A stretch of DNA of 64,000 nucleotides from a virus. The translations under genes and the position numbers were made by a program. The stretch's first letter is position 1. Each line of letters begins with the position of its first letter. The stretch is from positions 1 through 64,000 of the IMG/VR virus record IMGVR_UViG_3300025168_018236; one strand, given 5' to 3'. Shown piece by piece: positions 1-64,000 of the stretch. The notes under the pieces were generated by a model, which worked only from the letters and a program-made list of their open reading frames with translations, had not been told where the DNA came from and did no database searches.

Positions 1-3852
<3,852 letters not shown>

Positions 3853-3855
3853 TAG

Positions 3856-44016: not shown

Positions 44017-44022
44017 AGACCT

Positions 44023-48341: not shown

Positions 48342-49280
48342 ATGACAGAAGAATTCTTGTGGGTTGAAAAGTATCGCCCCCAGACAATTGAAGATTGCGT
48401 TCTACCTGAAGAACTAAAAAAGTCCTTTATGGAAATCGTCGAGAGTGGGGAGATGCAGAATCTCCTCCTCTCTGGCGGTCCCGGTTGTGGTAAGACTACC
48501 GTTGCACGGGCATTGTGTGATGAACTAGATTGTGATCATATTGTAATCAACTGCTCAGAAGATGGAAACATTGATACACTTCGTACAAAGATCCGAAACT
48601 TTGCTAGTACGATTTCTCTATCTGAACGGAAGAAGGTTGTGATCCTAGATGAGTTCGATTATTCAAATGCTCAGTCTACACAACCAGCACTTCGTGGTTT
48701 TATCGAAGAGTTCTCAAAGAACTGTCGGTTTGTTCTGACTTGTAATTACAAGAACAGGATTATTGAACCGCTTCATTCACGATGCACATGTATCGACTTC
48801 CGTTTTGGTGCGAATGAGAAGAAGCAATTGATGCCTTCATTCCTAAACCGTATTGAGTTTATTCTGAATGCCGAGGGTGTTGGTTACGACCAGCGAGTTA
48901 TTGCCAAGTTGATCACTCGCTATGCTCCAGACTGGAGACGTATTATCAATGAATGTCAACGCTATGCAGTTGGTGGGGATATTGATGTGGGTGTTCTCTC
49001 TGATTCGGGCGATGTAAAGGTCGTAGAATTGATGAAGTATCTTAAAGAGAAAGACTTCACCAGTGTCCGTAAATGGGTGTCTACTAATATCCATAATGAT
49101 CAGAGTCTGATCTTCCGGAAGATCTATGACTGTCTTTATGAAAAGATGCAACCGCAATCTATTCCGAGTGCAGTTTTGATTCTTGCAGATTACCAATACA
49201 AGGCAGCGTTTGTTGCTGACGCGGAAATTAATCTAACCGCATGTCTTACAAATATTATGATGGAGTGTGATTTTAAATGA
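48342..49280 (+). CDS. gp44: Clamp loader large subunit gp44
   Basis: The protein has 312 residues from 48342 (48330 is an alternative). AAA+ motifs: FLWVEKYRP, Walker A GGPGCGKT (45-52), Walker B VVILDEFD (about 99-106), and the HSRC arginine-finger region. T4 gp44 is 319 residues. It loads gp45 with gp62. It is followed not by gp62 but by two methyltransferase-like genes. Confidence 0.95.
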   Translation: MTEEFLWVEKYRPQTIEDCVLPEELKKSFMEIVESGEMQNLLLSGGPGCGKTTVARALCDELDCDHIVINCSEDGNIDTLRTKIRNFASTISLSERKKVVILDEFDYSNAQSTQPALRGFIEEFSKNCRFVLTCNYKNRIIEPLHSRCTCIDFRFGANEKKQLMPSFLNRIEFILNAEGVGYDQRVIAKLITRYAPDWRRIINECQRYAVGGDIDVGVLSDSGDVKVVELMKYLKEKDFTSVRKWVSTNIHNDQSLIFRKIYDCLYEKMQPQSIPSAVLILADYQYKAAFVADAEINLTACLTNIMMECDFK

Positions 49281-49870
49281 AAAAATTAAATGGCGAGTGG
49301 GGTATTGAAACACAATACCCAGATATTAAAGGTGTTTTCTCTGAGTGTGATCAAGATGTTTGGGTGGTGGAAACTCTCGATGAAAAAGAAAATGGATACT
49401 TTCTTGACATTGGATGTTCTGTCCCTTGGATGTGGAACAACACTGCACTACTTGAGGCAAATTATGGTTGGAGAGGGATAGCGATTGATCAGAGTTTTGA
49501 AAATAATGTTTATGTTCCTCTTTCAAAAGAACGTGGAATTGAACATGACTGGAAGAGCAGACCAAACACAATTTGTGTTGAAAAATCTGCCCTTGAAATT
49601 GATTACGAAAAGTTGCTGGATGAGCATAATGCCCCTGCGGTAATTGATTTTTTGTCCGTTGACATCGAACCCTCGGAAAAAATACTAGAGGTATTTGAAA
49701 TGTTACCACATGACAAATATAAATTTAGAACAGTTGCCTTCGAGCATAATGATTGGTTAGAAGGATCAGAGTGGGTAGAACACACACGAAAGGTAATTGC
49801 TTCGTATGGATACACCTATGTTAAAACAAGTATGCAAGATGATTATTATATCATGGAAGGAATAGACTGA
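49277..49870 (+). CDS. FkbM-like SAM methyltransferase inserted in clamp-loader operon
   Basis: This 197-residue protein overlaps gp44 by 4 bases. Motif I-like GYFLDIGCS (about 40-48), Asp of IAIDQS and VIDFLSVDIEPSEKILEVF fit the FkbM O-methyltransferase family, which is common in glycan clusters. The catalytic residues of individual members differ, so the target cannot be named. It is inserted between the two subunits of the clamp loader and may act with the glycan genes downstream. Confidence 0.75.
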   Translation: MKKLNGEWGIETQYPDIKGVFSECDQDVWVVETLDEKENGYFLDIGCSVPWMWNNTALLEANYGWRGIAIDQSFENNVYVPLSKERGIEHDWKSRPNTICVEKSALEIDYEKLLDEHNAPAVIDFLSVDIEPSEKILEVFEMLPHDKYKFRTVAFEHNDWLEGSEWVEHTRKVIASYGYTYVKTSMQDDYYIMEGID

Positions 49871-50466
49871 TGGCACTTCGTCGTGAAACATTAAACGAAA
49901 TGTACGCAATGGAAAGTCCAGAATGTTGTTTCGTGGAGACTGGGACTGGACCAACAGCGTCCGCCACACTAATGGCAATCGATGTTGGATTTAAAAAAAT
50001 TAGGACCATAGAGTTTCAACCAACTCTATACTCCGAAAATGTTACCCGATTCAAAGACATGCCTCATGTTACTGTATATTCTGGAAGTAGTGCGAAGGAA
50101 CTCTATAACATGTGTCATGATATAAAAACAGACATATTCTTTTGGTTAGACGCACATTATTCGGGAGGGATAACTGGTCGGGCAGAAAAAATATGTCCTC
50201 TCATCGAGGAACTGGAACATATCAAAAATCTCTCTTCAAATACCCACACCATTTGTATTGATGACGTTAGAGACATGTACAATGGGTACATGCAAGTTAG
50301 TGTTGAAGAAGTTAAAGCAAAACTATTGGAAATAAATCCTGACTATGATATACGGTTTGTTCGGGGGACTGAAGATGAACCAGAGTGGGCATTCAGAGGA
50401 AATGAGGTAATGGTTGCCACCATTAGAGACTACTCTTCTGTTGGAGATTGTGTAAAATCAACATGA
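49870..50466 (+). CDS. SAM methyltransferase-like protein
   Basis: This 198-residue Rossmann-like protein starts at the stop of the preceding gene. It has FVETGTGPTASATLMAI as motif I, an acidic end of strand 2 (TIEFQP), and FFWLDAHYSGGITG with Asp-His, typical of small class-I methyltransferases found near phage sugar genes. CIDDVRDM is another strand. Reaction and substrate unknown. It overlaps gp62 by 4 bases. Confidence 0.65.
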   Translation: MALRRETLNEMYAMESPECCFVETGTGPTASATLMAIDVGFKKIRTIEFQPTLYSENVTRFKDMPHVTVYSGSSAKELYNMCHDIKTDIFFWLDAHYSGGITGRAEKICPLIEELEHIKNLSSNTHTICIDDVRDMYNGYMQVSVEEVKAKLLEINPDYDIRFVRGTEDEPEWAFRGNEVMVATIRDYSSVGDCVKST

Positions 50467-50840
50467 ATCTAAGTGAAGTTCTAAATTCAGTCAATTACAA
50501 CAAAGAGGATATATTTCAAGATCTGCCCGATGTGACAGAAAAAGAATATGTTCCCTTCGTTGTCAACAAGTGTTTGTCATATTTTCCTGACACAATCATA
50601 CAGGCAAACAATATGAATATGCATCATGGAATTGATCCCAAGATGCAGTACCACTATTTGAAGAATTCTATCAGGAAGAGGAAGAGATTTTCCAAGTGGA
50701 ACAAGGCGACAACTCCGGAGAGTCTGGAACTTGTCAAGAAACACTATGGATATTCTAACCAGAAAGCAGAGGAGGCACTTAGAATCCTCACTCACAAGCA
50801 ATTAGAACACCTCGAAAACCTACATAAAGGAGAATCATAG
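50463..50840 (+). CDS. gp62: Clamp loader small subunit gp62
   Basis: This 125-residue protein starts at the ATGA overlap (50463); T4 gp62 has 187, and short forms are usual in marine relatives. Conserved pattern: VPFVVNKCLSYFPDTIIQANNMN, then LKNSIRKRKRFSKWNK and LELVKKHYGYSNQKAEEALRIL. It pairs with gp44 as the clamp loader. Its separation from gp44 by two methyltransferase-like genes is unusual. Confidence 0.88.
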   Translation: MNLSEVLNSVNYNKEDIFQDLPDVTEKEYVPFVVNKCLSYFPDTIIQANNMNMHHGIDPKMQYHYLKNSIRKRKRFSKWNKATTPESLELVKKHYGYSNQKAEEALRILTHKQLEHLENLHKGES

Positions 50841-50868
50841 TATGATTTAATTTAAAAAGGTGAAAAAT

Positions 50869-51273
50869 ATGGGTGAGAAAATAGAAGTTGAAGATCTCAT
50901 CGAGGTGACTTTAAACTCAGATGAAGACTTCTTAAAGGTAAAAGAAACATTAACACGGATTGGTGTTTCTTCTCGAAAAGACAAAAAGTTGTACCAGTCC
51001 TGTCACATTCTCCACAAACGGGGAAAGTATTATATTGTACACTTCAAAGAATTGTTTTCTCTTGATGGTCTTAAATCAGATTTTTCTGAAGAAGACGAGG
51101 GAAGAAGAAATGCAATTGCTGGGTTGCTTGGTCAGTGGGGACTAGTTAATATAGTCGATGTGGATAAAAGTTCCGATCCAATTACCCCTATAAGTAAAAT
51201 TAAGATTATTAAATACTCCGAAAGGGATGATTGGGAATTGTGTCCTAAATATCATATAGGAAAGTCGAGATAA
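50869..51273 (+). CDS. regA: Translational repressor RegA
   Basis: The protein has 134 residues from ATG 50869, which has AAGG 9 bases upstream; T4 RegA has 122. The core EDFLKVKETLTRIGVSSRKDKKLYQSCHILHKRGKYYIVHFKEL is nearly diagnostic. RegA binds near start codons of early mRNAs (including 44, 45 and 62 in T4) and represses translation. In this genome it is followed by glycosyltransferases rather than the DNA polymerase gene. Confidence 0.95.
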   Translation: MGEKIEVEDLIEVTLNSDEDFLKVKETLTRIGVSSRKDKKLYQSCHILHKRGKYYIVHFKELFSLDGLKSDFSEEDEGRRNAIAGLLGQWGLVNIVDVDKSSDPITPISKIKIIKYSERDDWELCPKYHIGKSR

Positions 51274-51280
51274 GTTCGCT

Positions 51281-51943
51281 ATGAAAATTGATCTTTGTAA
51301 TGTTCCAGTGAGGTGGATTAATGTTGATACCGCCACGGAAAACGATAAACTAATGGAAGAATTGTGTGAGCGATTATGCATGGATAATGCTAGTCGCTTT
51401 TCTGCCGTTACCGATATCCCTCCACATGAGGGAGTCCGAGAAGGTGAAGAACACTATAGAAATTGTGCGGAGTCTCATTTTCGAGTTCTCCAAGAAGCAA
51501 TCGATAATAAATCTTTTCCTCTTTTAATTCTTGAAGATGACGTAGATATTGAAGAGTCGGTATTTACTACAACCCTACAAAATATTCCAGACGATGCTGA
51601 TGCCATATACATGGGGACTTCTCATGGAGATGGTAATTATTCTGCTATTGATGTTGGCAATGGATGGATGAAAATTGAAAGAGTATTTGCCACTCATTCG
51701 ATTATGTGGTTAAATGAAAAGATGGCAAAAGAAGTAATTGAAACAGGGAAGCGATGGATCTATGGAAAGAATCATCCCTTTGATGTTGGTATTGCATATG
51801 AACTACAACCAAGGTTCAATGTATACGCACCACATGTTCCTTTCTTCTTCCAAGCAGATGCAAAGAATAATAAAAATAAATGGGAGTCAATGACAAGAAC
51901 TCCTCTAAAACAGTCAAAGAAATTTTCGGTATTCACACTATGA
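51281..51943 (+). CDS. GT25-like glycosyltransferase
   Basis: This 220-residue protein begins the glycan cassette, 7 bases after regA. It has NCAESHFRVL (Cys62, His66), a pattern like GCxxSHxxLW in GT25, and LILEDDV (82-88), the metal-binding EDD. CAZy family GT25 includes LPS galactosyltransferases and the collagen galactosyltransferases of animals. The sugar is not predictable. End overlaps the next gene by 4 bases (ATGA). Confidence 0.8.
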   Translation: MKIDLCNVPVRWINVDTATENDKLMEELCERLCMDNASRFSAVTDIPPHEGVREGEEHYRNCAESHFRVLQEAIDNKSFPLLILEDDVDIEESVFTTTLQNIPDDADAIYMGTSHGDGNYSAIDVGNGWMKIERVFATHSIMWLNEKMAKEVIETGKRWIYGKNHPFDVGIAYELQPRFNVYAPHVPFFFQADAKNNKNKWESMTRTPLKQSKKFSVFTL

Positions 51944-52746
51944 TAACTTTCAGTAAACTTGGAAACTGGGGACGACTAGGTAACCAGATGTTCCAGTACG
52001 CAATGCTCTATAGCGTTGCAAAAACTAACAATTTTAATTTCTGGTATCCTCATGATTTTTATCCAAATGGTATTATGTTACATGAGTGTTTCTCTGGTGT
52101 AGGTAAGGACATTTCTGATAGACCAAATACTTTGGGTGATGTTTACGTTGAACCCGAGGGACACGTTCATTTTGATCCATTAGTTTTTGAACAACCAGAC
52201 AACACAGAATACTTTGGATATTTTCAAAACTCAAAATATTTTTCTGGTTATGAAAATGAAATTAAAAAACAGTTCGTGTTTAAGGACGAGTTTATACAAG
52301 CAGGTAATGCTATTCTTGATAGAGTCCCGAGTGGAAAGAAAAAAATCTCATTACATGTGAGAAGAACAGATTATCTAGTATTGGATAAAATTTATACCAC
52401 GCTAGGCATAGATTATTATAACTCTTGCTTAGAAAATCATGATAAATCAGATTCTTTTGTTTTAGTTTTTAGTGACGATATTGAATGGTGTGTTAAGAAT
52501 TTCAAATTGGATCGACCATACGCTATCGTTGATACAAGCGAACACGGACAATGTGGAGCATATATCGACATGTACATGATGACACAGTGTGACGTTAATA
52601 TTATTGCAAATAGTTCTTTCAGTTGGTGGGCAGCATGGTTGGGTAAAAATGAAAAGGTGTACGCACCCAAAGACTGGTTTAATCCAGAAAATAAATCGGA
52701 CGTAAATTATGATGGATTTTTTCAAAAGTCATGGGAGTTGGTATGA
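51940..52746 (+). CDS. GT11-like glycosyltransferase (fucosyltransferase family)
   Basis: This 268-residue protein uses the ATGA overlap start (MITFSKLGNWGRLGNQMFQYA). LHVRRTDYL (138-146) and NSSFSWWAAWLG (224-235) are the GT11 motifs, shared with the second GT11 at 57810. GT11 enzymes transfer fucose from GDP-fucose in alpha-1,2 linkage. No GDP-fucose synthesis genes are seen here, so the donor would come from the host or from outside the window. Confidence 0.86.
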   Translation: MITFSKLGNWGRLGNQMFQYAMLYSVAKTNNFNFWYPHDFYPNGIMLHECFSGVGKDISDRPNTLGDVYVEPEGHVHFDPLVFEQPDNTEYFGYFQNSKYFSGYENEIKKQFVFKDEFIQAGNAILDRVPSGKKKISLHVRRTDYLVLDKIYTTLGIDYYNSCLENHDKSDSFVLVFSDDIEWCVKNFKLDRPYAIVDTSEHGQCGAYIDMYMMTQCDVNIIANSSFSWWAAWLGKNEKVYAPKDWFNPENKSDVNYDGFFQKSWELV

Positions 52747-53678
52747 GACAGATTAATACTTTCGACATTGAAAATTCACATGCACCAACATGGAAAGATG
52801 CTGGTCTTTACTCCGGCATACGCGGAGAAGAAAACAGAGCAAAGTTTATAAAACCAAATACTAATCTTGAGTATGTACGAAACCAACCTGAGTGGGATGG
52901 TATAACTATATTCACAGACAGAATGTTGCCAATGGTCAAAGAAGTTGATTCTAAAATTAAAGTTGGTTTACTCATGGAATCTCCTATCGTCTGGGGTCAC
53001 ATATATGATGATATAAAAAAATTAGAGGACTCCTTTGATTTAATATTCACCCACGATAAAAACCTCTTGAGTAGAGATCCACTTAAGTATAAATTTATAC
53101 CGGCAGACTGGGTTTCTGTAGAAGAGGAATCTCATGGTTTGCATGAAAAGACTAGATTAGTATCTAAGATATATTCTTTAAAGGGAAAAACAGAATACGG
53201 TGGAATTGGTGATAGACCACTTCGTCACACTGTAGCAGAGAGATTTGCAGATAGATTGGACTTGTTTGGTGAGGGATCACCAAAAGGCACTCTAGATTTA
53301 AAATCAGATTCCCTTGTTGATTACATGTTTTCTATCCCTATGGAAAATGCGATAAAAGATTACTACTACACGGAAAAGATACTGGATTGTTTTATAACGG
53401 GAAACGTGCCAATCTTTTTTGGTGCAAGAAGTGTTTCAACTTTTTTTGATGAACGTGGTATATTATTCTGGAATTCGCTGGACGAACTTGGTACAATATT
53501 GAAGAGAATTGGACCAGAATTATATAAAGAAATGGAACCCTACGTCAAAATTAATTATGAACTAGCAACTAAATATATTGACGCAGACGACACGCTTTGT
53601 GGTTTTATTGACAAGTGTTTAGAGAACCCGAAGTATGATACTATGGAGAACTACAAATATGAGAATAGTAAAATATGA
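52743..53678 (+). CDS. GT10-like glycosyltransferase
   Basis: This 311-residue protein starts at the ATGA overlap. C-terminal motif YYYTEKILDCFITGNVPIFFGA (about 207-228) with the acidic/Lys residues preceding it (MENAIKD) matches the GT10 donor site (usual form 'EN....Y.TEK...af..G.vPvy.G'). GT10 contains alpha-1,3/4-fucosyltransferases. The N-terminal half is less conserved and longer than in bacterial FucT. A second GT10-type gene follows at 55013. Confidence 0.78.
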   Translation: MRQINTFDIENSHAPTWKDAGLYSGIRGEENRAKFIKPNTNLEYVRNQPEWDGITIFTDRMLPMVKEVDSKIKVGLLMESPIVWGHIYDDIKKLEDSFDLIFTHDKNLLSRDPLKYKFIPADWVSVEEESHGLHEKTRLVSKIYSLKGKTEYGGIGDRPLRHTVAERFADRLDLFGEGSPKGTLDLKSDSLVDYMFSIPMENAIKDYYYTEKILDCFITGNVPIFFGARSVSTFFDERGILFWNSLDELGTILKRIGPELYKEMEPYVKINYELATKYIDADDTLCGFIDKCLENPKYDTMENYKYENSKI

Positions 53679-54363
53679 CACTAACAAATATGACTTTAAG
53701 GGTTTAGTTCAGAGCGTCTATGACTGTGAACTAGATGCTCTTGATAACGAGGAAGAAAAAACTAATCTTACGTTAGGAACAGACACTAAGACTTCTTTTC
53801 ATAAGTTGTTTTATGAAAAAATTGATTCTGGGTGGACTGATTTCGTTGATCTGTACAGAGCATTTATCCGAGAGGTTATCCATCCGATGTTTGAAGATGA
53901 CGAAATGATTTTTCAAACACTACCGGGAATTAGATTTTGTCGTCCCGGAGCGAAGGCGGTATATAAATGGCACTCCGATGGTGATCCAGATCACAAACAC
54001 CCTCTAGGTGAAGTTAATGTTATTCTTCCTCTAACAAAGTGTTTTGATACCAATAGTATCTGGATGGAGTCTATTCCGGGTATGGGTGATTTTAAACCAG
54101 TGACTATGGATTATGGTGAGTTCTTTATTGGTTATCTTAATCAATGTAGGCATGGTAATCTTGATAACGAGACGGGAAAGACTAGAGTTAGTTTTGATTT
54201 CAGAGTTGTTCCCGGTTTTGCATATGATCCAGAATGTACCCTTGAAACATGCACAACCAAGTCAAGATTTGTCGTTGGTGGGTACTATGATAAAATTACT
54301 AGAGAAGAAACTCCCTCAATGTATGATGCAGAGGAAAACGCAAAGCGTGGAGCAGCATGTTAG
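53659..54363 (+). CDS. 2OG-Fe(II) oxygenase (StrG/prolyl-hydroxylase-like fold)
   Basis: The protein has 234 residues from the ATG at 53659 (GGAGAA 8 bases upstream). The complete active-site set is visible: His105-Ser-Asp107, His165 (CRHGN) and Arg176 (GKTRVSF) 11 residues later, i.e. the HxD...H facial triad with the 2-oxoglutarate anchor. It lies inside the glycan cassette, where such enzymes could hydroxylate a sugar, lipid or protein. StrG-type and protein-hydroxylase targets are both possible. It overlaps the GT10 gene by 20 bases and the next by 7. Confidence 0.8.
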   Translation: MRIVKYDTNKYDFKGLVQSVYDCELDALDNEEEKTNLTLGTDTKTSFHKLFYEKIDSGWTDFVDLYRAFIREVIHPMFEDDEMIFQTLPGIRFCRPGAKAVYKWHSDGDPDHKHPLGEVNVILPLTKCFDTNSIWMESIPGMGDFKPVTMDYGEFFIGYLNQCRHGNLDNETGKTRVSFDFRVVPGFAYDPECTLETCTTKSRFVVGGYYDKITREETPSMYDAEENAKRGAAC

Positions 54364-55016
54364 ATCCACTTGAATATGATGAACAACTTTTATCCTACAC
54401 GATGGAAAAATATAATTGTTCTGATCCATGGGATGTTGTTGATGTCTTTGAGAAAAAACTAGCAGAATACGGTGGAAGTAAGTTTGCTGTTGCAGTTGAT
54501 AACTGCACTGATGCTATGTTTTTGTGTTTGAAGTATCTGAATGCATCTGGGACTGTAGAAGTTCCGCGAAGAACCTATGTGTCTGTTCCGTGTACAATAA
54601 AGCACGCGGGGTGTAGTGTTAAATTTGTTGATGAAGAATGGTCAGGTGCGTATCCACTCAACCCACACCCAGTTTATGATTCCGCGACTAGAATGAAACG
54701 TGGAATGTATGTTCCCGGTTCGTATTATTGTCTTTCGTTTCACAGAAGGAAACACATCCCTATAGGGAAAGGTGGAATGATTCTTACTGATGATGAGGAC
54801 GCTTATAACTGGTTTAAGGTTTCTCGTTACGAGGGTAGACATATGGATCGACTGTACAAAGATGACTCGTTTGATACTGTTGGATGGAACATGTATCTTC
54901 CCCCTGAACAGGCAGCAAGAGGACTTTACTTGTTTGAAAATATCAAAGATGATAATCCTGACTTAGAGTCATCTGGAATACATAAAGATCTATCAGAGTT
55001 TAGGATTTACGAGTGA
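54357..55016 (+). CDS. Very short DegT/DnrJ/EryC1-like PLP aminotransferase
   Basis: This 219-residue protein is much shorter than the usual ~370. It keeps the cofactor region: VAVDNCTDAMFLCLKYL, Asp108 (PVYDSATRM), and SFHRRKHIPIGKGGMILTDD with Lys132 as the Schiff-base lysine. The family transfers amino groups to keto sugars (4- or 3-amino sugars). The C-terminal small domain is largely missing; the frame runs to a natural stop overlapping the next start, so this is not an obvious frameshift. Activity is uncertain; it could be a reduced enzyme or a remnant. Confidence 0.72.
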   Translation: MLDPLEYDEQLLSYTMEKYNCSDPWDVVDVFEKKLAEYGGSKFAVAVDNCTDAMFLCLKYLNASGTVEVPRRTYVSVPCTIKHAGCSVKFVDEEWSGAYPLNPHPVYDSATRMKRGMYVPGSYYCLSFHRRKHIPIGKGGMILTDDEDAYNWFKVSRYEGRHMDRLYKDDSFDTVGWNMYLPPEQAARGLYLFENIKDDNPDLESSGIHKDLSEFRIYE

Positions 55017-55852
55017 ATAAATTAAAAGTTTGTATTCGTGATGATTATGATCCAGAGTCATTTGAAACCACTCGTCCCAACCCAAATGATCTGTGGGTTT
55101 ACGACAGAGATAACCCTGATTTAATTATTTACATGAATGCAACCATGCCCACTAAAGACAATTCATGTGTCCTGATGACAGAATCTTATGAGGTGCAACG
55201 ATACTATAATGGAATAGATAAAAATCGATCTAGGTTAGAGGAGATTTCAAAAAGTATTCCGGTCTACTCATTTGATAAGTCACTGGGGGTAAACACCATT
55301 TGTCCCGCCACACCCTCTTGGGTATCTGAACCACGGATGTATGAAAAAAGTAAAAAGATTAGTATGATAACCAGTCTCAAAAATATGTGCAGTGGTCATA
55401 GTCTTCGCTTATCAATTTTAACTAAACTGCAAGGAGAGGGGTGGGATGTTGAATTGTTTGGTAGAGAAATTAATCCAATAAACACCAAAGAGGATGGTCT
55501 TGCTCCTTATATGTTTTCTATTGTGGTGGAAAATGAAAAAGTCCCCGGTTGGCACACAGAAAAAATATTAGATTGCTTCTCCACAGGGACCATTCCTCTT
55601 TATTGGGGAGATCCGTGTATTGGAGATAACTACGATACAAATGGAATCATAGATCTGGTTGAGTTTTTTGGTGATGTGAATCCAGCACATTGGGACAAAA
55701 CTCGATTATCAAATTTGACCGAAGATCTTTATAACTCCATGCTTCCGTCTACACAGAGAAATCTAGAAATAGCAAAAGATAAAAGATTAGATTACCACCT
55801 CGGCAAAATTATTAACAAGATATGTCAGGATTATATCAATGGAAAACATTAA
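55013..55852 (+). CDS. GT10-like glycosyltransferase (second copy)
   Basis: This 279-residue protein starts at GTG in a GTGA overlap. It has YMFSIVVENEKVPGWHTEKILDCFSTGTIPLYWGDP (166-201), the classic GT10 nucleotide-sugar region (EN...TEKI.D.f..G.iP.Y.G). It shares this motif with the gene at 52743 but is otherwise different, so the pair are paralogues or separate acquisitions. Its N-terminus is a short Rossmann-like domain. Donor and acceptor are not predictable; fucose or a related deoxy sugar is possible. Confidence 0.85.
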   Translation: MNKLKVCIRDDYDPESFETTRPNPNDLWVYDRDNPDLIIYMNATMPTKDNSCVLMTESYEVQRYYNGIDKNRSRLEEISKSIPVYSFDKSLGVNTICPATPSWVSEPRMYEKSKKISMITSLKNMCSGHSLRLSILTKLQGEGWDVELFGREINPINTKEDGLAPYMFSIVVENEKVPGWHTEKILDCFSTGTIPLYWGDPCIGDNYDTNGIIDLVEFFGDVNPAHWDKTRLSNLTEDLYNSMLPSTQRNLEIAKDKRLDYHLGKIINKICQDYINGKH

Positions 55853-57041
55853 AATACTTTGTAATCAGTTGTACCCAGATCCGCATCTTTCGAGGGTAAT
55901 ACGGGAAAACGGAGGACGAGGAGAACTTTACCATAGCAGCAATGGGAACTCAGTCATGTTGTTTCAAACAGAAAGCACTGGTGATCCTTTATTGGATAGT
56001 GAACAAGATGTTTGTGGACTAAATTCTAGACCATATTTAATCACGGATCATAAGTACATACCATCCAATATAATTGAACAATTAATTTTGTGTAAGAGTG
56101 ATTTCATAGAAAAGAAAAATGTCTCTTATCATATTGAGGAAGGATTTGTCGATAAAGAAATCATAATCATCATACCCCTCAAGGGACGGACTGATAACAT
56201 TAGAACAGTGTTACAGTCTTTTACTAAGGACAGTTCTATTGGAGTTATTGTTGTCGAGGGGGATACAAGTAGCACTAGTATTAAAGATATCTCTATTGAA
56301 GAGGGATGCTCTTACATACACATTGAGGTGGATGAGTTTAATAAATCACAGTGTATGAATGTCGCATATTCTTTGATCTATTCAAAGACAAAGGCAGATT
56401 GGTTTGTTTTTCATGATGCTGATGTTGTTCTTTGTTCTGAATTTAAAGATCAAATAAAGGATAGAATCAAGCGAGATGATTTACCGAAGTTTTTTCAGTG
56501 TTTTGCTAATAAATGTGTTCGATATTTCGAGAAAAATCAAAGCAAACCTCTTAGAGAACTTATATCAAAAGAGGGACCAATCTCAGGGAAAAACTATAAT
56601 TCTTTTGTTGAAAGTGTCCGAGAAATTGGACGTATTAACTCTAAACCATCGCCGGGCGCACCGGGTGGATCGATTTGTATTCACCGAGATATATTTGAAT
56701 CTATCGGTGGGTATGATCCCGAGTGGTGTTTGCGATATGGTCCAGAAGATTCCATGTTCTTGATTAAAGCAAATTATTTTTATGATAAAGTTTGTTATGA
56801 TAAAAAGCATGGAACCTGTGGTGTGCATCGAATTGAAACAGAAAATCTAGATTGCTTAGGTTGCCATCTATGGCACCCGACCGCAACATTCGGTGATGTT
56901 TCTCTTTTTGCAACATCAAACTTGATTCAAGATGTATTGATAAACTTAGATGAACGAGCAATTAGTCTTGTGTTAAAATCTGCAAGTTTACAACTTGATA
57001 GAATGAAGAACATCTACAAAGAGACAGTGGAGGCGACATGA
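55839..57041 (+). CDS. GT2/GT7-like glycosyltransferase with galactosyltransferase-type motifs
   Basis: This 400-residue protein has a GT-A fold pattern after residue 105: IIIIIPLKGRTDN, DFD-equivalent HDADV (192-196), and GGSICIHRDIFESIGGYDPEW followed by RYGPEDSMF, as in the bacterial GT7/chondroitin-synthase type of acceptor-binding region. The N-terminal 100 residues are extra and unassigned. It overlaps neighbours by 14 and 4 bases. Probably transfers a hexose or HexNAc; not more can be said. Confidence 0.75.
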   Translation: MENIKILCNQLYPDPHLSRVIRENGGRGELYHSSNGNSVMLFQTESTGDPLLDSEQDVCGLNSRPYLITDHKYIPSNIIEQLILCKSDFIEKKNVSYHIEEGFVDKEIIIIIPLKGRTDNIRTVLQSFTKDSSIGVIVVEGDTSSTSIKDISIEEGCSYIHIEVDEFNKSQCMNVAYSLIYSKTKADWFVFHDADVVLCSEFKDQIKDRIKRDDLPKFFQCFANKCVRYFEKNQSKPLRELISKEGPISGKNYNSFVESVREIGRINSKPSPGAPGGSICIHRDIFESIGGYDPEWCLRYGPEDSMFLIKANYFYDKVCYDKKHGTCGVHRIETENLDCLGCHLWHPTATFGDVSLFATSNLIQDVLINLDERAISLVLKSASLQLDRMKNIYKETVEAT

Positions 57042-57817
57042 AAAATCATTTTACTATTGTCGGTGTTGGGTATAATTCCGCACCGTGGATTCGCATGTGT
57101 CTTGATAGTGTAGTAAATCAGGAGTACGATAACTATGATATTATTATGGTTGATGCATTTACTAACGATGGGACATATGATGTATTGAAAGAGTATGAAA
57201 GTAATCACGAAAACTTTACTTGTGTAAGAAAAACTGATCGGTGTTTTCAAACTGAAAATGTGAAGGACGGTGTTCATCTGTCAAAACCCGGAAGTATTAT
57301 TGTCACAGTTGACTTTGATGATTGGTTGCCGGACTCTGGTGTTTTGTCTAGACTAAACGAAGTCTACTCTGATGATGTTTGGATGACGTATGGAACCTAT
57401 GCCGAGTATGTTGGTGGTGATAACTATCAAGTCTTCCCTGATGGTTTTTTTCACGAACATACAGAGGAAACCATTGCTACAAATAATTACCGTTCTGCAA
57501 GGTGGTTGACCTCACATCTTAGAACTTTTAGAAAAGAACTCTTTATGCGGATCAAAGAGGAAGATTTCATAGACCCTGTAACAAATTCTTACTATGACAC
57601 CGCAGGTGATTTTACATTCATGATGCCAATGTTGGAAATGGCAGCAGAAAGACAACGGTACATTCCTGATGTAATGTATGTTTATAATAAAACAAATCCA
57701 ATTAGTGATGATAAAAAAGATGTCAATGGATCAGTTGGAAGTATTCACCAAGAAAGAATCGCTGATAGTATTAGAGAAAAAACAAAGTATATTAGATTGG
57801 AATCTTTAAATGGATAG
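57038..57817 (+). CDS. GT2 family glycosyltransferase
   Basis: This 259-residue protein has the GT-A opening FTIVGVGYNSAPWIRMCLDSV, IMVDAFTNDGTYDVL, and DFDDW (92-96) as the metal-binding DxD. The rest has an acceptor-side Trp-rich patch (YRSARWLTSHL). It overlaps the upstream gene by 4 bases and the downstream by 8. Length is typical for a single-domain transferase. Confidence 0.85.
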   Translation: MKNHFTIVGVGYNSAPWIRMCLDSVVNQEYDNYDIIMVDAFTNDGTYDVLKEYESNHENFTCVRKTDRCFQTENVKDGVHLSKPGSIIVTVDFDDWLPDSGVLSRLNEVYSDDVWMTYGTYAEYVGGDNYQVFPDGFFHEHTEETIATNNYRSARWLTSHLRTFRKELFMRIKEEDFIDPVTNSYYDTAGDFTFMMPMLEMAAERQRYIPDVMYVYNKTNPISDDKKDVNGSVGSIHQERIADSIREKTKYIRLESLNG

Positions 57818-58637
57818 TCATGTTATCAGCAGAGTTAAGAAAGGAATTTATCCTGATCATTTTGGTCTTGCTAATCAGTTGTTCCAAATAGCAGCGGTAT
57901 ACGCTTATGCAAAAAGAAATGGAATAACTGCCACTTTCCCAGATCTCACAAATACAGAAAGAAACGGACCATATCTAGACACCATTTTTAGGAATATAGA
58001 AACTGGACACTCTGATATGGTTTCTCAATGTTTGGGTGAGGGGAGAGTTTATTATGAACCTACATTCGTTTATACAGAAATCCCCGAGGGAATGCGTGAC
58101 TTTTTAGTTGACGGATATTTTCAAAGTGAAAAGTATTTTTCTGATTGTTCAGATGATATTCAGAAACTTTTTTCAATAGATGAGCAATCAAAAAATACCA
58201 TCAACGAACTCACAAAGGATATCGAAGACGGATGGGCGACTCTACACATAAGACGAGGTGATTACTTAGATTTCCCTGATGTTTTTGTTGACCTGTGTTC
58301 CACCAACTACTATCGACGAGCGGTGGATATGTTGGAAAGTGATATCGTGTATATCGCTACGAACAAAAAAGACTGGTCTGAAGAATGGGTTGATAAAAAC
58401 TTACCAAAAGACAAAGAGTATCGATGGTCAAATTCTTCGGATATTATTGATTTGTACTTGATGTCTATGGCAAAAGAGTGTATAATTGCCAACAGTTCTT
58501 TCAGTTGGTGGGGATCTTGGTTAGGTGAAAATAAGAAAACCATAGCACCTCGGAATTGGTTTTGTGAAGGACATGATGTGACGGCAGAAGGCATTTATCA
58601 CTCTAACTGCACCATCATAGATACAGATATAAGATAA
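57810..58637 (+). CDS. GT11-like glycosyltransferase (second copy)
   Basis: This 275-residue protein has LHIRRGDYL (145-153) and NSSFSWWGSWLGENKKTIAP (228-247), like the gene at 51940. The N-terminal GLANQLFQIAAVYAYAKRN is the GT11 nucleotide-binding start. Alpha-1,2-fucosyltransferase family. The pair 51940/57810 diverges outside the motifs, so different acceptors are likely. It sits just before the GT2-TPR gene that leads into the fibre genes. Confidence 0.87.
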   Translation: MDSHVISRVKKGIYPDHFGLANQLFQIAAVYAYAKRNGITATFPDLTNTERNGPYLDTIFRNIETGHSDMVSQCLGEGRVYYEPTFVYTEIPEGMRDFLVDGYFQSEKYFSDCSDDIQKLFSIDEQSKNTINELTKDIEDGWATLHIRRGDYLDFPDVFVDLCSTNYYRRAVDMLESDIVYIATNKKDWSEEWVDKNLPKDKEYRWSNSSDIIDLYLMSMAKECIIANSSFSWWGSWLGENKKTIAPRNWFCEGHDVTAEGIYHSNCTIIDTDIR

Positions 58638-58646
58638 GGATTTATT

Positions 58647-60041
58647 ATGAGCAAAAGACCAAATGACATTACCGTTACACTTTGTATGATCGTAAAGGAT
58701 GAAGAACATATCATCCATGAGTGCTTAAATTCCATGGCACCATACATCGACCGATATGATATCACCGATACAGGTTCAACAGATAGAACCAAAGAAATTA
58801 TTAAAGAGTGGGGTGAAAAGAACAACATCCCCGGAACTGTGTATGATGCTCCTTGGCGTGGATTTGGTAAGTCTCGTACAGAATCCTTGAGAAACGCGGA
58901 CAAGGGTGGTGCAGACTACTCTTGGGTCATTGATGCTGATGATATGATCGTAGGTACTTTTCAATATCCACCACAGTTTGGTGAACATTGTGGTTATACT
59001 CTGAAGATCAATAGGGGTGACTTTGAGTGGTGGAGAAATCAAATCTTCAAGAACAACATGGGTTGGGAGTATGTTGGTGTTATTCATGAATACGCTAATT
59101 GTCCTAAACTAGAAGAAGAAGCGGCAGCAGGTCGTGGTAGTGCTAGACTTGCCGGTGACTACTGTATTGATGCCCGAACAATGGGCAACAGAACTAAAGA
59201 GTTTGATGTTGAACTAGGAGAAGGGGAAACAGAAGAACCCGGAAAAGAATCATGGAGAAAGAAGTATCTCGCGGATGCAGAAACTCTTCTTGATTGTATA
59301 ACCAATCCAGAAAACGAAAACTACGAACCAGAAAATTACCGTTATTATTTCTACCTTGCTCAGTCGTACTTCGACGGCGGCGACTTTAATAAGGCAAAGG
59401 AGTGGTACGAGAAGAGAGCAGAAAAAGGTGGATGGGAAGAAGAACAGTGGTATTCTGTTATGCGTGTCGCCATGTGTATGACTAATCTTGGTGAAAAGTG
59501 GCAAGACTCACAAGATGTTTTCTTGCAGGCATACAACTTAAGACACACTCGCGTTGAACCGCTATTCAATCTTGCCAGAATCCATAGACTAAATGGAAAT
59601 CCTAAACTGGGATACCTGTTTGCTAAGATGGGATGCCAGATAGCATTCCCTCCCAATGACGTTCTTTTTGTTGCAAAAGACATCTATGCATGGCAAATTT
59701 ACGATGAACTCGCATCTACTGCTTGGTACACTGGAGATATGCAGGCAGGTCTCATGGCATCTAATAAACTTCTCAGTGAAAAGTTGTATCCACAAGACCA
59801 ACATGAACGAATCCTAAACAACTGGAAGCAATATGTTGCATGGCATGAAGAGCAAGAAAAGCAACAAAAATCAGCAGAGGCAGAGCAAACCAAGCAAAGA
59901 ATCTTACACGAAGAAGCACAGCGAAAAGAATCAGACCAAAGAAAAATCGAAACTAAAAATCGGGAACAACAAAAGAAGATAAATAAGAGGAGACAGAAGC
60001 AAAAAAATGCGAGCAAGTCTCGTAAAGCATCGAGGAGATGA
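58647..60041 (+). CDS. GT2 glycosyltransferase fused to TPR-like helices and a charged tail
   Basis: This 464-residue protein has a GT2 domain at residues 1-200 (TLCMIVKDEEHIIHECLNSM, DTGSTDRTKEI, SRTESLRNA, IDADD 95-99). It has helical TPR-like repeats at about 245-390 (YFYLAQSYFDGGDFNKAKEWYEKRAEKGG, EPLFNLARIHRLNGN). The Lys/Gln/Glu-rich C-terminal 70 residues look like a coiled coil. TPR domains in glycosyltransferases often hold protein acceptors. The next gene starts 3 bases later and is a virion fibre-type gene, making a protein-glycosylation role attractive but unproven. Confidence 0.82.
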   Translation: MSKRPNDITVTLCMIVKDEEHIIHECLNSMAPYIDRYDITDTGSTDRTKEIIKEWGEKNNIPGTVYDAPWRGFGKSRTESLRNADKGGADYSWVIDADDMIVGTFQYPPQFGEHCGYTLKINRGDFEWWRNQIFKNNMGWEYVGVIHEYANCPKLEEEAAAGRGSARLAGDYCIDARTMGNRTKEFDVELGEGETEEPGKESWRKKYLADAETLLDCITNPENENYEPENYRYYFYLAQSYFDGGDFNKAKEWYEKRAEKGGWEEEQWYSVMRVAMCMTNLGEKWQDSQDVFLQAYNLRHTRVEPLFNLARIHRLNGNPKLGYLFAKMGCQIAFPPNDVLFVAKDIYAWQIYDELASTAWYTGDMQAGLMASNKLLSEKLYPQDQHERILNNWKQYVAWHEEQEKQQKSAEAEQTKQRILHEEAQRKESDQRKIETKNREQQKKINKRRQKQKNASKSRKASRR

Positions 60042-60044
60042 TAC

Positions 60045-60497
60045 ATGGCATCCGGAAGGTACGATATTTCTGCTGAACAAGGTGTTACTTTTAAGTTACA
60101 TCTAAGATATAGTGACTCAAATTCAGAAAATATAAATTTGGATAATTATGTTGGCAGAATGCAGGTCAGAAGATCTCCGCAAGATTCTGACATGGTTTTG
60201 TTTGTTACCACTGGTGGTACAGGAGATGTACCAGTAGGAGGAGGAGTAACCGGCGGAGGGATCACTGGTGAATTTACATCAGGAGCAGGGATTTCTGGTT
60301 CTGGCGGAATCACATTAAACGCATCCGCTACTGGTGGTCTTGGACATACTGGAGGCATTTTAATTGGAGTTGACGCTTCTTCTATGTCGAATGTTCCATC
60401 TGGAAATCATTTCTACGACGTAGAATTGGTCACAGGTGATACTGTAGTTCGTGTGATAGAAGGACGATTCAGCGTCGATAGAGAAATTACCAGATGA
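60045..60497 (+). CDS. Small Gly-rich fibre-cluster structural protein
   Basis: This 150-residue protein begins ASGRYDISAEQGVTFKLHLRY, a pattern of small virion proteins at the head of fibre operons in marine T4-like phages. The middle is a Gly-rich stretch (GGTGDVPVGGGVTGGGITG). The rest alternates as beta strands (YDVELVTGDTVVRVIEG). Probably an adaptor or fibre-base protein; the call is from context and composition. It overlaps the next gene by 4 bases. Confidence 0.65.
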   Translation: MASGRYDISAEQGVTFKLHLRYSDSNSENINLDNYVGRMQVRRSPQDSDMVLFVTTGGTGDVPVGGGVTGGGITGEFTSGAGISGSGGITLNASATGGLGHTGGILIGVDASSMSNVPSGNHFYDVELVTGDTVVRVIEGRFSVDREITR

Positions 60498-63217
60498 GTA
60501 ATAAAATTAGTATCAATTCTGATTCCCCTAAAAGGGTGGAGGTTACTGCCACGCCGGGGAATATCAATGTAACTGATGCTTCTGCAAAAATTCAAACTAT
60601 CCAAGTAGCACAAGGTGTCATTGCTGATGGTAAAGCGGGTGCTGACGGAGCAACTGGTACATTCCAGTTTAGTTATGGATCGTCTCCGCCCGCATCCCCT
60701 GATGTCGGTGATATTTGGTTTAATTCTGGTGATGGTGTATTTGTAATTTATCTACAAGATAATGATAGTAACCAATGGGTTGAGTGGTCTGGTAAACAAG
60801 GAGTTACTGGTCCTGCTGGTGGTATTGATGGGACTAGTTTGATTCATGCTCTAGGTATTTCTACCGATAAGGGAATTACTTTCCCTGATGGAACTCATCA
60901 AACAACCGCTGGTGGTGGGGGTGGTGCTGGTACAACAGGAACCACTGGTACAACAGGAACAACAGGAACCACAGGAAACACCGGAGAAACTGGTGCTACT
61001 GGTTCAACAGGAAACACCGGAGAAACTGGTGCTACTGGTTCTGCTGGCGGAAATACATTTGGTATTCCGGGTGGTTTCGGTTTCTTTACACGATTTGATG
61101 GAACAACTGGATCAACCATACCGGTTCCAACGGGCGGTCTCTCACAACCGGGAGGATTTAAGTTTGCGTTTGATCATGGAACAGGAACAGCAGGAACAGG
61201 AGATAGACCTAATTGGCCAAGTTCGTCCGGACTGAATTCCGAATCGTTTCCAGAAGGAACATACCCCACAGAAATCTACATAAATGAATTTGCCTATGGT
61301 GGTGTGAAGGGTACACATATTCCCAACCTCATTACACTCTTGATGGGTGCATCCGGTGGAACGATCCAGATTGGTGAGGACGGCGAGCAAGCAACTGCTG
61401 TTGCAATTTGCAAATTGACACAAATGCTGCCACATGTTCGCGGAGATGATTCCTCTAACGTAGGTCGAACTCCTAGTGAAGTATGGTTCTATGTGAAACC
61501 CGGATTGGATCATGCCAACTCTTCGGGATCTGCGAATCACACAATTCCTATTGGTAGAATTGATGAAGGTGGTATTAGACCAGTATTCCCATCTAATGAA
61601 TCTGCTGCATCCGGTGGAACAGGAGCGGTCCAAGACGGAGATGTATTCTATCTTAGTTTCCAACCAGTCTTCGGTGTAGGGGACGGCAGCAACAGTTCGG
61701 GTGGAGGTACTGCATATCAAGCAGGAGACGGACTCACGCTAGATGTTGCTGGTGGAACTTTTGGTATTGATCCAACTGCAAACATTCAGGTCAATGGTAT
61801 CACTAATAATGGTTCTTTCATTGAATTCAGAACCCTATCGTTCGGTGCTGGTCCCGAGATTGCGTTCCAAGTCAGTGGTACGGACAAGTTGAAAATCCGA
61901 AACAACAAGTTCCAACTAACTCAAGCAGTCGTCGTCGATGGCGGACTTTTTACTGCCAAATCAGGAGCGAGTATAACCGGTGGATTACTTGTCACGGGAA
62001 GCGGCGGATTAACTGTAGAAAATTCTAACATCTTTGAAACAGTTCTTCATGCCAACGCAGGAATTTCTGCTGATAAGGGAATTACTTTCCCTGATGGTAC
62101 TCATCAGACGACTGCTCCCGCTTCAGCATTCCTTTCTGGCGGCGAAGGTGTAACTGGTATAACTCAGTATAGAGCAACCGATGGTATTCTTTTAGACCCT
62201 GCTGGTCAAACATTCACACTTAATAGTGAGTACAGTGCTGAGTTTACATCATTAACAACTTCTGGAACAGTGAAATCTAATTTAGTCCTTGCTGCTGTCG
62301 GTGGTATCTCTGCGGACAAGGGAATTACTTTCCCCGATGGAACTCACCAAACTACTGCTGGTGGAGGCGGTACGCTGGCGTTCCAAGATGGTGGTGCAAC
62401 TTTTGCAGGAACGGTTCATGGTGAAAAATTCCTTGATTTCGATCACGGAAACGACTCAGGAATGGCACTCGATGTCAATCATGTAGTGTCACTTGTTGCC
62501 GCTGGGACGATTGGATTGAGGACACTTAGTTCAGGAACCGAAATTAAAGGACAACTTCAACCCGAGGCAGGTATATCTGCCGATGATGGAATGACTCTGG
62601 ACGGTGTTCTTAATCTGCCTGTTGGAGATGGTAGCAATCCAGCGACCGCCATCAAGATTCCCACTGGAAAAAAAATTGTTAACCAACAAACCTCTGCTGT
62701 TCCGTCTCTTCGACTTTCAACTAGCACGGTTGAACTCAGTTCATCTAGTTCAGGAACGCCGGGTAAAGTATTAGTAGAGACAGGTAAAGTAAAGATAGAC
62801 AATGTTGTTCTGAATACAGAAGCGGGTATCTCAATGGATACTGTTGGCATCACCTTCCCTGATGGAACCTACCAAGATAGTGCGGCATCTGGATCTGGGA
62901 CATCAACAATCACTGACTCATATGTCGGTAATATTGAAAGTGTTTCAAATAAAGTATTTAAGATAGACCCAAGAACCGTTGCAGCAAGAACTATCACAGA
63001 GTTCTTCGCCATCGCGGTGACGGGTGGATGTACTGCCGAACTTCATGGCAACGGAAACGCCATTGGAACTATTCTCTTGCGTGATGGTGTGACTGGTGCT
63101 ACCTCATTATCTGCACTAGCGAATCAAACTCTGCCTGCTGGTTCTACATTGCAATTTACATTATCAGGAAATAGTGGTTGTAGAGACTTCCAGTTTGCGA
63201 TTGGGTATACACAATGA
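60494..63217 (+). CDS. Collagen-like tail fibre with repeated GISADKGITFPDGTH modules
   Basis: This 907-residue protein starts at the ATGA overlap. A short N-terminal domain (60494-60650) and a second globular part (FQFSYGSSPPASPDVGDIWF) come before collagen-like GTTGTTG... (about 60925-61050). The repeated module GISxDKGITFPDGTHQTTA is seen at about 60854, 62060 and 62302, with weaker versions near 62566 and 62824. C-terminal region is non-repetitive and ends with GNSGCRDFQFAIGYTQ. The modules also occur in the fibre gene at window position 1. Probably a receptor-binding or decorating fibre. Confidence 0.88.
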   Translation: MSNKISINSDSPKRVEVTATPGNINVTDASAKIQTIQVAQGVIADGKAGADGATGTFQFSYGSSPPASPDVGDIWFNSGDGVFVIYLQDNDSNQWVEWSGKQGVTGPAGGIDGTSLIHALGISTDKGITFPDGTHQTTAGGGGGAGTTGTTGTTGTTGTTGNTGETGATGSTGNTGETGATGSAGGNTFGIPGGFGFFTRFDGTTGSTIPVPTGGLSQPGGFKFAFDHGTGTAGTGDRPNWPSSSGLNSESFPEGTYPTEIYINEFAYGGVKGTHIPNLITLLMGASGGTIQIGEDGEQATAVAICKLTQMLPHVRGDDSSNVGRTPSEVWFYVKPGLDHANSSGSANHTIPIGRIDEGGIRPVFPSNESAASGGTGAVQDGDVFYLSFQPVFGVGDGSNSSGGGTAYQAGDGLTLDVAGGTFGIDPTANIQVNGITNNGSFIEFRTLSFGAGPEIAFQVSGTDKLKIRNNKFQLTQAVVVDGGLFTAKSGASITGGLLVTGSGGLTVENSNIFETVLHANAGISADKGITFPDGTHQTTAPASAFLSGGEGVTGITQYRATDGILLDPAGQTFTLNSEYSAEFTSLTTSGTVKSNLVLAAVGGISADKGITFPDGTHQTTAGGGGTLAFQDGGATFAGTVHGEKFLDFDHGNDSGMALDVNHVVSLVAAGTIGLRTLSSGTEIKGQLQPEAGISADDGMTLDGVLNLPVGDGSNPATAIKIPTGKKIVNQQTSAVPSLRLSTSTVELSSSSSGTPGKVLVETGKVKIDNVVLNTEAGISMDTVGITFPDGTYQDSAASGSGTSTITDSYVGNIESVSNKVFKIDPRTVAARTITEFFAIAVTGGCTAELHGNGNAIGTILLRDGVTGATSLSALANQTLPAGSTLQFTLSGNSGCRDFQFAIGYTQ
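60854..62358 (+). repeat. Dispersed ~57-base fibre module (three strong copies)
   Basis: About 57 bases encoding GIS(T/A)DKGITFPDGTHQTTA appear at 60854-60910, 62060-62116 and 62302-62358, differing at scattered, mostly synonymous third positions. A related copy lies at about 2710-2765 ([12 protein letters not shown]). Such identical stretches inside and between fibre genes can act as recombination points. Confidence 0.85.
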
Positions 63218-63702
63218 GTCCTTTATGTCGCATGGGTGAATATAATTCTAGTCTTTTGACCTATGTTGAAACAACTCTTGGGTCATGGAATACCGGTAAT
63301 GCTTGGTGGATTGTTACCAATAAAGACTGGAGTGATGGTAACGTAATATTTTCAGGGACAGGGCAACTGTTGGTGAATGATGGTGGATCAAACGGAGAAA
63401 ATGGAAGTATTCGTATTGATCCCGGATCTGGTTATCCTGCCGGAAGTCCCGCAGGCGGTGCTAACGATTTTTATCTAGAATATCCAAACGCCATACTAAT
63501 TGCCACCATAGGAGGTCGCCCATATGGGTTTGGAGTGCAAGACCCCACGGGTAACGATGACTTTCGTTTTGAGGAAGTTCAACCTCCCGAATTTACTCTT
63601 GCTGGTATCACGGCAGGTGGAACTGAGGGATGGGACGGAGACACAACTATAGTAATGGAATTATACTCAAGCGGTGATATTGATACAGAATTGAATCTAT
63701 AA
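63214..63702 (+). CDS. Unknown small fibre-cluster protein
   Basis: This 162-residue protein overlaps the preceding fibre gene by ATGA. It is rich in Gly, Asn, Thr and Trp (LGSWNTGNAWWIVTNKDWSDGN), consistent with a small beta-sandwich, as in carbohydrate-binding or tail accessory domains, but no family is recognised. No signal peptide. Position suggests a fibre tip or fibre chaperone. Confidence 0.6.
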   Translation: MSPLCRMGEYNSSLLTYVETTLGSWNTGNAWWIVTNKDWSDGNVIFSGTGQLLVNDGGSNGENGSIRIDPGSGYPAGSPAGGANDFYLEYPNAILIATIGGRPYGFGVQDPTGNDDFRFEEVQPPEFTLAGITAGGTEGWDGDTTIVMELYSSGDIDTELNL

Positions 63703-63705
63703 ATA
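63698..63705 (+). promoter_or_regulatory. TATAAATA late promoter candidate
   Basis: An exact match to the T4 late -10 box TATAAATA overlaps the stop codon of the gene ending at 63702 and lies 9 bases before the next ATG. The start would be close to the ATG, so the leader is very short; a purine-rich GGA (63706-63708 region) is the only ribosome-site candidate. Confidence 0.4.
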
Positions 63706-63714
63706 GGAATAGAT

Positions 63715-64000
63715 ATGTCAGATTTCCCATCAACAAGTTTATCAATCGGTCAACAAGTAACCTTTAACAACTCTGTCTTTGAGTGGACAGGTGTTTATTG
63801 GAAGGCACTTGGAACTGTTGCTGCATCAATTGTTGGTGCTACTGGTAATAGTGGTGCAACTGGTGCTGTTGGTGCTACTGGTAATAGTGGTGCTACAGGT
63901 GCAGGGGGAACCGCAGGCACGACAGGAAACACTGGAGAAACTGGTGCTACTGGGTTTGTTGGTTTAAGAAATGGGTTGACAATTGATGTACTTGGTAGTA
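63715..64000 (+). CDS. Collagen-like fibre protein, 3' end outside window
   Basis: About 95 residues are visible from ATG 63715. The opening MSDFPSTSLSIGQQVTFNNSVFEWTGVYWKAL looks like a small N-terminal attachment domain. Then Gly-X-Y repeats follow from about residue 41 (GATGNSGATGAVGATGNSGATGAGGTAGTTGNTGETGATG). Reading continues past base 64000. Another fibre of the same collagen-like class as the genes at 1 and 60494. Confidence 0.85.
   Translation, partial: MSDFPSTSLSIGQQVTFNNSVFEWTGVYWKALGTVAASIVGATGNSGATGAVGATGNSGATGAGGTAGTTGNTGETGATGFVGLRNGLTIDVLGS

Follow-up and report, generated by a model that had tools for sequence, protein, structure and literature searches.

What does a bacteriophage modify with a set of sugar enzymes whose genes run directly into those of its tail fibres: the sugars on its host's surface, or parts of its own virion? 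This question is raised by the window analysed here, 64,000 of the 66,609 bases of IMG/VR virus record IMGVR_UViG_3300025168_018236, in which a cassette of glycosyltransferase genes (51281-60041) ends in a gene that we call GT2-TPR, encoding a GT2-type glycosyltransferase domain followed by TPR repeats, and is succeeded by genes for collagen-like tail fibres. From gene content and comparison with related loci we propose, with a probability of roughly 0.75, that the cassette encodes a glycosylation pathway for the phage's own tail fibres and not a system for altering host sugars. The initial annotation had suggested that the phage may decorate its own fibres, and this is now the best-supported reading; the route it had in mind is replaced by one through GT2-TPR (58647), which it had listed just as GT2-like, leaving out the TPR repeats. 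The phage is a T4-like myovirus whose gp23 resembles those of cyanophages, a pelagiphage and methylophage Melnitz to about the same degree, at 52%; gp23 was present in 18 of 30 related records (window record included). A cyanobacterial host is not indicated, because psbA was missing from all 30 records.

Gene families were called with Pfam, PHROG and NCBIfam profiles, and folds with an AlphaFold model and structure search. A single-gene scan for viral GT2-TPR relatives gave 22 loci and a profile scan 321 IMG/VR stretches; the analysis used the 80 best of these. The GT2-TPR open reading frame (ORF) was present in 86 viral loci, corresponding to 76 non-redundant groups counting the window, of which 74 were informative; one non-redundant contig stops right after GT2-TPR. 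The phage group carrying this operon is uncultured, mostly marine and T4-like. Across the 76 groups the cassette ends with GT2-TPR. The gene after it encodes a tail or fibre protein in 71 of the 74 informative non-redundant loci, with gaps of -4 to 62 nucleotides (nt). This next gene resembles p60045, a small tail protein gene of the window, in 49 loci and encodes a collagen-like fibre in 17, a non-collagen fibre in 4, a tail-like protein in 1 and a dUTPase in 3. In a reverse scan, GT2-TPR was found within 4 kb upstream in 43 of the 57 p60045-like loci with sufficient upstream sequence. Runs of Gly-X-Y (GXY) triplets lie downstream of GT2-TPR in 28 of 38 viral loci and upstream of it in none (0/38). 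Individual loci in which a dUTPase gene follows GT2-TPR are L051, L053, L061, L062 and L079.

Within a hypervariable cassette, GT2-TPR is the gene that stays constant. The genes upstream of it, 757 ORFs in total, fall into 239 clusters, 138 of which are singletons, with a mean Jaccard index of 0.10, and their representatives match many glycosyltransferase and methyltransferase families as well as formyl-, cytidylyl- and aminotransferases. More than one predicted membrane segment was found in none of the 757 cassette ORFs, and no flippase-, polymerase- or lipid-carrier-transferase-like protein is among them, whereas wbbH, rfbX, wzxC, wcaJ and wcaD of E. coli surface-glycan clusters, used as control for the membrane counter, were found with scores of 3-9. 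This lack of multi-pass membrane proteins speaks against assembly of an O-antigen or capsule, not against a change of the lipopolysaccharide (LPS) core.

In the window, the cassette is preceded by the replication genes gp45, gp44, gp62 and regA. The stretch 51281-60041 is an unbroken gene run with gaps of at most 9 nt, and as far as 65249 the gaps stay within 12 nt, so that the sugar genes pass into the tail genes; between GT2-TPR and p60045 lie 3 nt (60042-60044), as annotated initially, and p60045 and the fibre gene after it (fibre2) overlap by 4 nt. More tail genes, dut and a GDP-fucose synthase gene follow, the latter at record positions 65701-66609, beyond the window end. A scan for T4 late-promoter motifs gave one match, at 63698, which is within chance. 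The cassette genes were found where the initial annotation had placed them, and their glycosyltransferase and DegT families are backed by Pfam, in some cases below cut-off. The genes after regA, in order, and the other features of the window discussed below are:

51281..51943, + strand: GT25-like glycosyltransferase, first cassette gene, 7 nt after regA (PF01755, E 8.7e-5, below cut-off; phrog_24091, 7e-21)
51940..52746, + strand (likely start 51940; ORF from 51880): GT11 (fucosyltransferase-family) enzyme with an HVRRTDY motif (PF01531, 3e-23; phrog_2644, 7e-65)
52743..53678, + strand (ORF from 52731): GT10-like glycosyltransferase with a TEKILDCF motif (PF00852, 1.4e-4, below cut-off)
53659..54363, + strand (longest ORF from 53635): 2-oxoglutarate (2OG)-Fe(II) oxygenase, likely sugar-tailoring, with HxD, H and R (TIGR04324, E 3.7e-6)
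54357..55016, + strand: short DegT/aminotransferase-like protein of 219 amino acids, partner of the 2OG oxygenase (PF01041, 1.4e-20)
55013..55852, + strand: second GT10-like glycosyltransferase (PF00852, 8.3e-6, above cut-off)
55839..57041, + strand: GT2/GT7N-like glycosyltransferase (PF13733, 1.9e-4, and TIGR04283, 2.5e-6, both below cut-off)
57038..57817, + strand: GT2 glycosyltransferase (PF00535, 8.5e-15)
57810..58637, + strand: second GT11 enzyme (PF01531, 4.5e-18; phrog_2644, 1e-44)
58647..60041, + strand: GT2-TPR, proposed initiating fibre glycosyltransferase (PF00535, 4e-9, plus TPR)
60045..60497, + strand: p60045, conserved small tail protein, probable fibre adaptor (phrog_1084, 2.7e-16; phrog_3304, fibre assembly, 1.2e-6)
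60494..63217, + strand: fibre2, tail fibre with a Gly-X-Thr (GXT) run, proposed acceptor (phrog_366, tail fibre, 1.8e-5)
63715..64000, + strand: fibre-like protein with GXT repeats that runs past the window end (15 GXY triplets, 53% Thr at Y)
1..3852, + strand: fibre1, collagen-like tail fibre truncated at its 5' end where the record begins, possible second acceptor (PF01391, 2.8e-35)
44484..45473, + strand: GalE-like nucleotide-sugar epimerase, possible donor supply (PF01370, 1e-52; phrog_540, 3e-66)
49277..49870, + strand: FkbM-type methyltransferase (PF05050, 3.9e-5)

The GT2-TPR protein has an N-terminal GT-A/GT2 domain with a DxD motif followed by TPR repeats, and the motifs DADD and DTGS are invariant across 17 family members. 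Profile and structure searches, which the initial annotation had proposed for the enzymes, placed it near protein and peptide glycosyltransferases: among PDB chains its profile matched GmaR (4e-15), SunS (1.6e-5), ThuS (4e-4) and TarS (9e-4), and the fold search with its AlphaFold model (pLDDT 85.6, pTM 0.66; helical repeats from residue 203) gave SunS and ThuS as top PDB matches (about 1e-12), then TarS and the TPR domain of O-GlcNAc transferase. It also has fold relatives in giant viruses. The NCBIfam SunS family (TIGR04195) is matched by 16 of the 17 family members, and the window protein scores far under its cut-off (18.3 bits against 350); by these scores it is a relative of SunS and not a SunS. 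GmaR modifies flagellin and carries an extra anti-repressor domain, while SunS and ThuS are peptide glycosyltransferases of the glycocin type with small bacteriocins as substrates, and SunS joins the sugar to Cys. In these substrates, this additional domain and this Cys linkage they are unlike the phage case; in domain order and fold they resemble GT2-TPR, of which they are the best profile and fold matches, and the order of glycosyltransferase then TPR is described for GmaR (PMC3150276). The C-terminal 80 residues of GT2-TPR include a long final helix whose tail, KINKRRQKQKNASKSRKASRR, is strongly basic, and a basic C-terminus is also present in relatives.

A functional precedent for the gene layout is bacterial. 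In C. difficile, SgtA, a GT-A plus TPR protein encoded directly upstream of bclA3, transfers O-GlcNAc onto Thr of collagen-region peptides, and its authors could not identify glycan-extending enzymes (PMC7157674). The phage system is similar in having a soluble enzyme with a GT-A domain and C-terminal TPR whose gene lies beside that of a collagen-like protein, with one small gene separating GT2-TPR and fibre2 in the window. It differs in that BclA3 is a bacterial spore protein and the phage operon adds up to eight other glycosyltransferases. The likeness concerns layout and domains; the sequences were compared by eye over the first nine residues of SgtA only (MITISLCMI, from a published primer). 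Bacterial relatives of GT2-TPR with 30-36% identity occur in Proteobacteria, Actinomycetota, Bacteroidota, Armatimonadetes, Hydrogenedentota, Chlamydiota, Holophagaceae and others, and in 19 of 23 bacterial loci (L173-L195) a Thr-rich GXY gene lies within about 6 kb, mostly adjacent or nearly so. In size-matched windows, such a gene was present at 15 of the 23 bacterial GT2-TPR loci and at none of 30 control loci, which hold other GT2 genes from the same genomes. Besides SgtA-BclA3 we found no published description of this pairing in bacteria, in a literature search with little coverage of subscription journals. The isolated jumbo phage Tunturi_5, whose host Tunturiibacter is a soil bacterium, encodes a nearly full-length relative (gp35, 31.5% identity), six genes from gp29, a 1,470-amino-acid fibre with several GXT runs, and is the only isolated phage with an annotated relative of this kind. 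A tblastn search of isolated phages with the 2OG, p60045 and fibre1 proteins (the last with a low-complexity filter) gave no match, and a PDB profile search with p60045 gave just a weak match to a 'Structural protein'.

The Thr-rich repeats at both window ends, which the initial annotation had pointed out and proposed as glycosylation sites, are real and far beyond shuffled expectation. Fibre1 contains 99 GXY triplets in five runs, the longest of 33, with 66% Thr at Y, and fibre2 contains 16 triplets with 75% Thr at Y, whereas shuffled fibre sequences never gave more than seven GXY in a row. At the Y positions, fibre1 has no Lys and three Pro, and fibre2 has neither. Thr is a plausible acceptor in the window phage. 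Across the group, however, the 47 labelled collagen rows divide into 24 with Y positions rich in Thr and 23 Thr-poor ones, so in 23 loci the enzyme is also linked to collagen with little Thr. On the GT2-TPR tree there are at least seven changes of the Thr-rich label, and together with the 23 Thr-poor and 18 non-collagen rows this ruled out Thr at Y as a universal acceptor. Thr-rich repeats are thus not required for fibre linkage, and Thr in GXT is likely the acceptor in the window phage and not the rule across the group.

The initial annotation had further likened the GT25-like enzyme to collagen galactosyltransferases and the 2OG oxygenase to collagen hydroxylases, and these analogies failed or became weaker. 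The acceptors of such chemistry, Lys or Pro at Y for hydroxylation and GT25 galactosylation, are missing or nearly so from fibre1 and fibre2, and canonical hydroxylysine chemistry is impossible at the phage repeats because they have no Lys at Y. The sole solved relative of the GT25-like protein in a profile search is mimivirus R655, a weak match (E 6e-4). R655 belongs with L230 and R699 to the collagen-modifying enzymes of mimivirus, the characterised ones of which act on hydroxylysine (PMC9546862), and giant viruses also have fibril glycan clusters (PMC9614988); these systems resemble the one proposed here in that a virus encodes enzymes for glycosylating collagen-like or fibril proteins, and differ from it in that the phage repeats offer no Lys at Y. 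A collagen-type role is unsupported for both enzymes. The HxD...H...R site of the 2OG oxygenase is complete, as annotated, and invariant in the window protein and four relatives. These were found among the GT2-TPR loci, whereas scanning viral sequences with the 2OG protein as single query gave none. The gene (53635-54363) has no Pfam match, and its NCBIfam match to the carbohydrate-cluster 2OG oxygenase family lies far below cut-off. It is rare, occurring in 6 of the 86 loci, in 5 of which the short DegT gene is next with a 7-base overlap, and consistent co-occurrence with collagen-like targets was not found: its neighbours include Thr-poor collagen and, in one locus, a fibre without a collagen run within 6 kb. 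Since it is rare, paired with DegT and present beside Thr-poor and non-collagen fibres, its setting suggests a sugar-tailoring enzyme. Its predicted structure (pLDDT 49.6) was too low for use, and the Asp_Arg_Hydrox profile (PF05118) matched neither the record nor the control genomes and was uninformative. A second, distinct 2OG-Fe(II) oxygenase gene lies outside the cassette, soon after the head genes (36133-37044; PF13759, E 7e-12; TIGR02466 weak).

Gene content, operon order, the conserved linkage, the variability of the cassette, its lack of multi-pass membrane proteins and the family and fold of GT2-TPR are observed. From these results we infer a scheme for which reaction takes place, on which residue, with which sugars and when. 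The pathway would operate in the host cytoplasm, where GT2-TPR would grip the newly made fibre via its TPR domain and put on the first sugar, in the window phage most likely on Thr (or Ser) of the Gly-X-Thr region. The other glycosyltransferases would lengthen this sugar into a phage-specific glycan, fed by sugar nucleotides from both phage and host (GalE, GDP-fucose synthase). Fucose is a plausible component because the phage encodes two GT11 enzymes, two GT10-like enzymes and one GDP-fucose synthase; the GT10-like enzyme at 52743 has 36 related ORFs across 33 viral loci. The 2OG/DegT pair and the methyltransferases would tailor the glycan. Two methyltransferase-like genes had been annotated near the cassette along with GalE (44487): the GalE and FkbM (49277) assignments stood, and the gene at 49870 has no family match. 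FkbM homologues occur in 13 other viral loci, and that the window's FkbM protein methylates the glycan is a guess. The initiating enzyme and the fibre would be kept in one operon while extending genes are swapped among phages, and in this way every lineage would come to have a fibre coat of its own. We lean, with moderate confidence, towards this combination of a fixed, fibre-linked GT2-TPR initiator with an interchangeable, serotype-like glycan cassette, by which phages of a widespread group would vary the sugar coat on their receptor-binding fibres. The pieces are of known kinds, and what is new is the fibre-linked initiating enzyme combined with a swappable cassette in phages.

Several points weigh against fibre self-glycosylation. 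TM-scores between the GT2-TPR model and SunS are only about 0.45-0.6, the viral sample (the best 80 of 321 stretches) consists of fragments throughout, and three non-redundant loci have a dUTPase gene and no fibre after GT2-TPR. The collagen of the downstream fibre is Thr-poor in 23 loci, and 18 of the 65 labelled rows have no collagen run; because many linked fibres are of these kinds, the acceptor may sit outside the repeats, elsewhere in the fibre or in another tail protein such as p60045. Self-glycosylation of fibres in T4-like phages was absent from the literature found, in which subscription journals were little covered. The published reading of such genes, given in the accessible text on a pelagimyophage host-recognition cluster, is modification of the host O-chain (PMC7029224). 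That cluster is likewise marine and T4-like with hypervariable glycosyltransferase genes beside tail fibres, and that text differs in its host reading and in reporting no GT2-TPR anchor. The corresponding alternative here is that the cassette remodels host LPS or capsule, blocking superinfection or aiding progeny release, and lies beside the fibres since receptor and specificity change together. Hypervariable glycosyltransferase content fits such co-variation, linkage to fibre genes could be favoured by receptor change as well as by fibre glycosylation, and some surface-glycan steps, as in the LPS core, need soluble enzymes only, so the lack of membrane proteins is not decisive. Yet that lack extends to all flippase-, polymerase- and carrier-transferase-like proteins, the nearest solved relatives of the constant enzyme act on proteins or peptides, and bacterial relatives lie near collagen-like genes, where a phage receptor explains nothing; we consider host remodelling, the foremost of the alternatives, unlikely.

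The glycan could also be destined for a virion protein other than the fibre, such as the p60045 family, the baseplate or the capsid. For virion glycosylation in mycobacteriophages, we know of no collagen-like target or large variable cassette. Glycosylation of mycobacteriophage capsid and tail-tube proteins, at their C-termini, is known from Freeman et al. (2023), as cited in PMC12619734, and is a precedent for glycosylated virion proteins. In the viral loci, a p60045-like gene is the commonest direct neighbour (49/74) and is retained where the fibre is not collagen-like, and the linkage survives the changes of the Thr-rich label. Against this, the collagen-like fibre gene itself adjoins GT2-TPR in 17 loci, with p60045-like genes farther away or unseen, and no p60045-like gene was noticed, without a systematic search, beside the bacterial relatives, which have GXT proteins; such a target is improbable. 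Glycosylation of phage DNA is well known, and the cassette does come after replication genes; T4-style glycosylation of hydroxymethylated DNA is nevertheless very improbable, as the thymidylate-synthase/dCMP-hydroxymethylase family was found in none of 29 related records (at most 157 kb, many of them fragments), GT2-TPR resembles protein glycosyltransferases, and it is linked to tail genes in 71 of 74 loci.

Marine phages carry many glycosyltransferases, which have mostly been assigned to change of host LPS or to protection of DNA. With a conserved initiating enzyme of protein type sharing an operon with the fibre, a third role, in which the receptor-binding apparatus is self-glycosylated, could be tested in at least 321 IMG/VR stretches. 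The finding also hints at a function for GT2-TPR proteins of bacteria, a family that has been little studied and is encoded near collagen-like genes in many phyla. As to benefit, we infer that sugar-coated fibres could affect stability without hydroxyproline, host range, grazing and phage recognition.

At the left end of the window, fibre1 and the adjoining p3856 (1-4998) resemble the pair that follows GT2-TPR in many relatives (L008-L016), and in L023 GT2-TPR precedes a fibre1-p3856-type pair beside baseplate genes; a further GT2-TPR gene may be situated to the left of where the record begins. A pyrimidine-dimer DNA glycosylase gene (44020-44490) and a Dam-type DNA methylase gene (43174-43974) adjoin GalE. 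In the C-terminal part of a baseplate wedge protein (8434-10923), two dockerin-like calcium-loop repeats, DFNQDGKVDGADL and DLNKDGLVDGGDL, were spotted by eye and were absent from the Pfam results.

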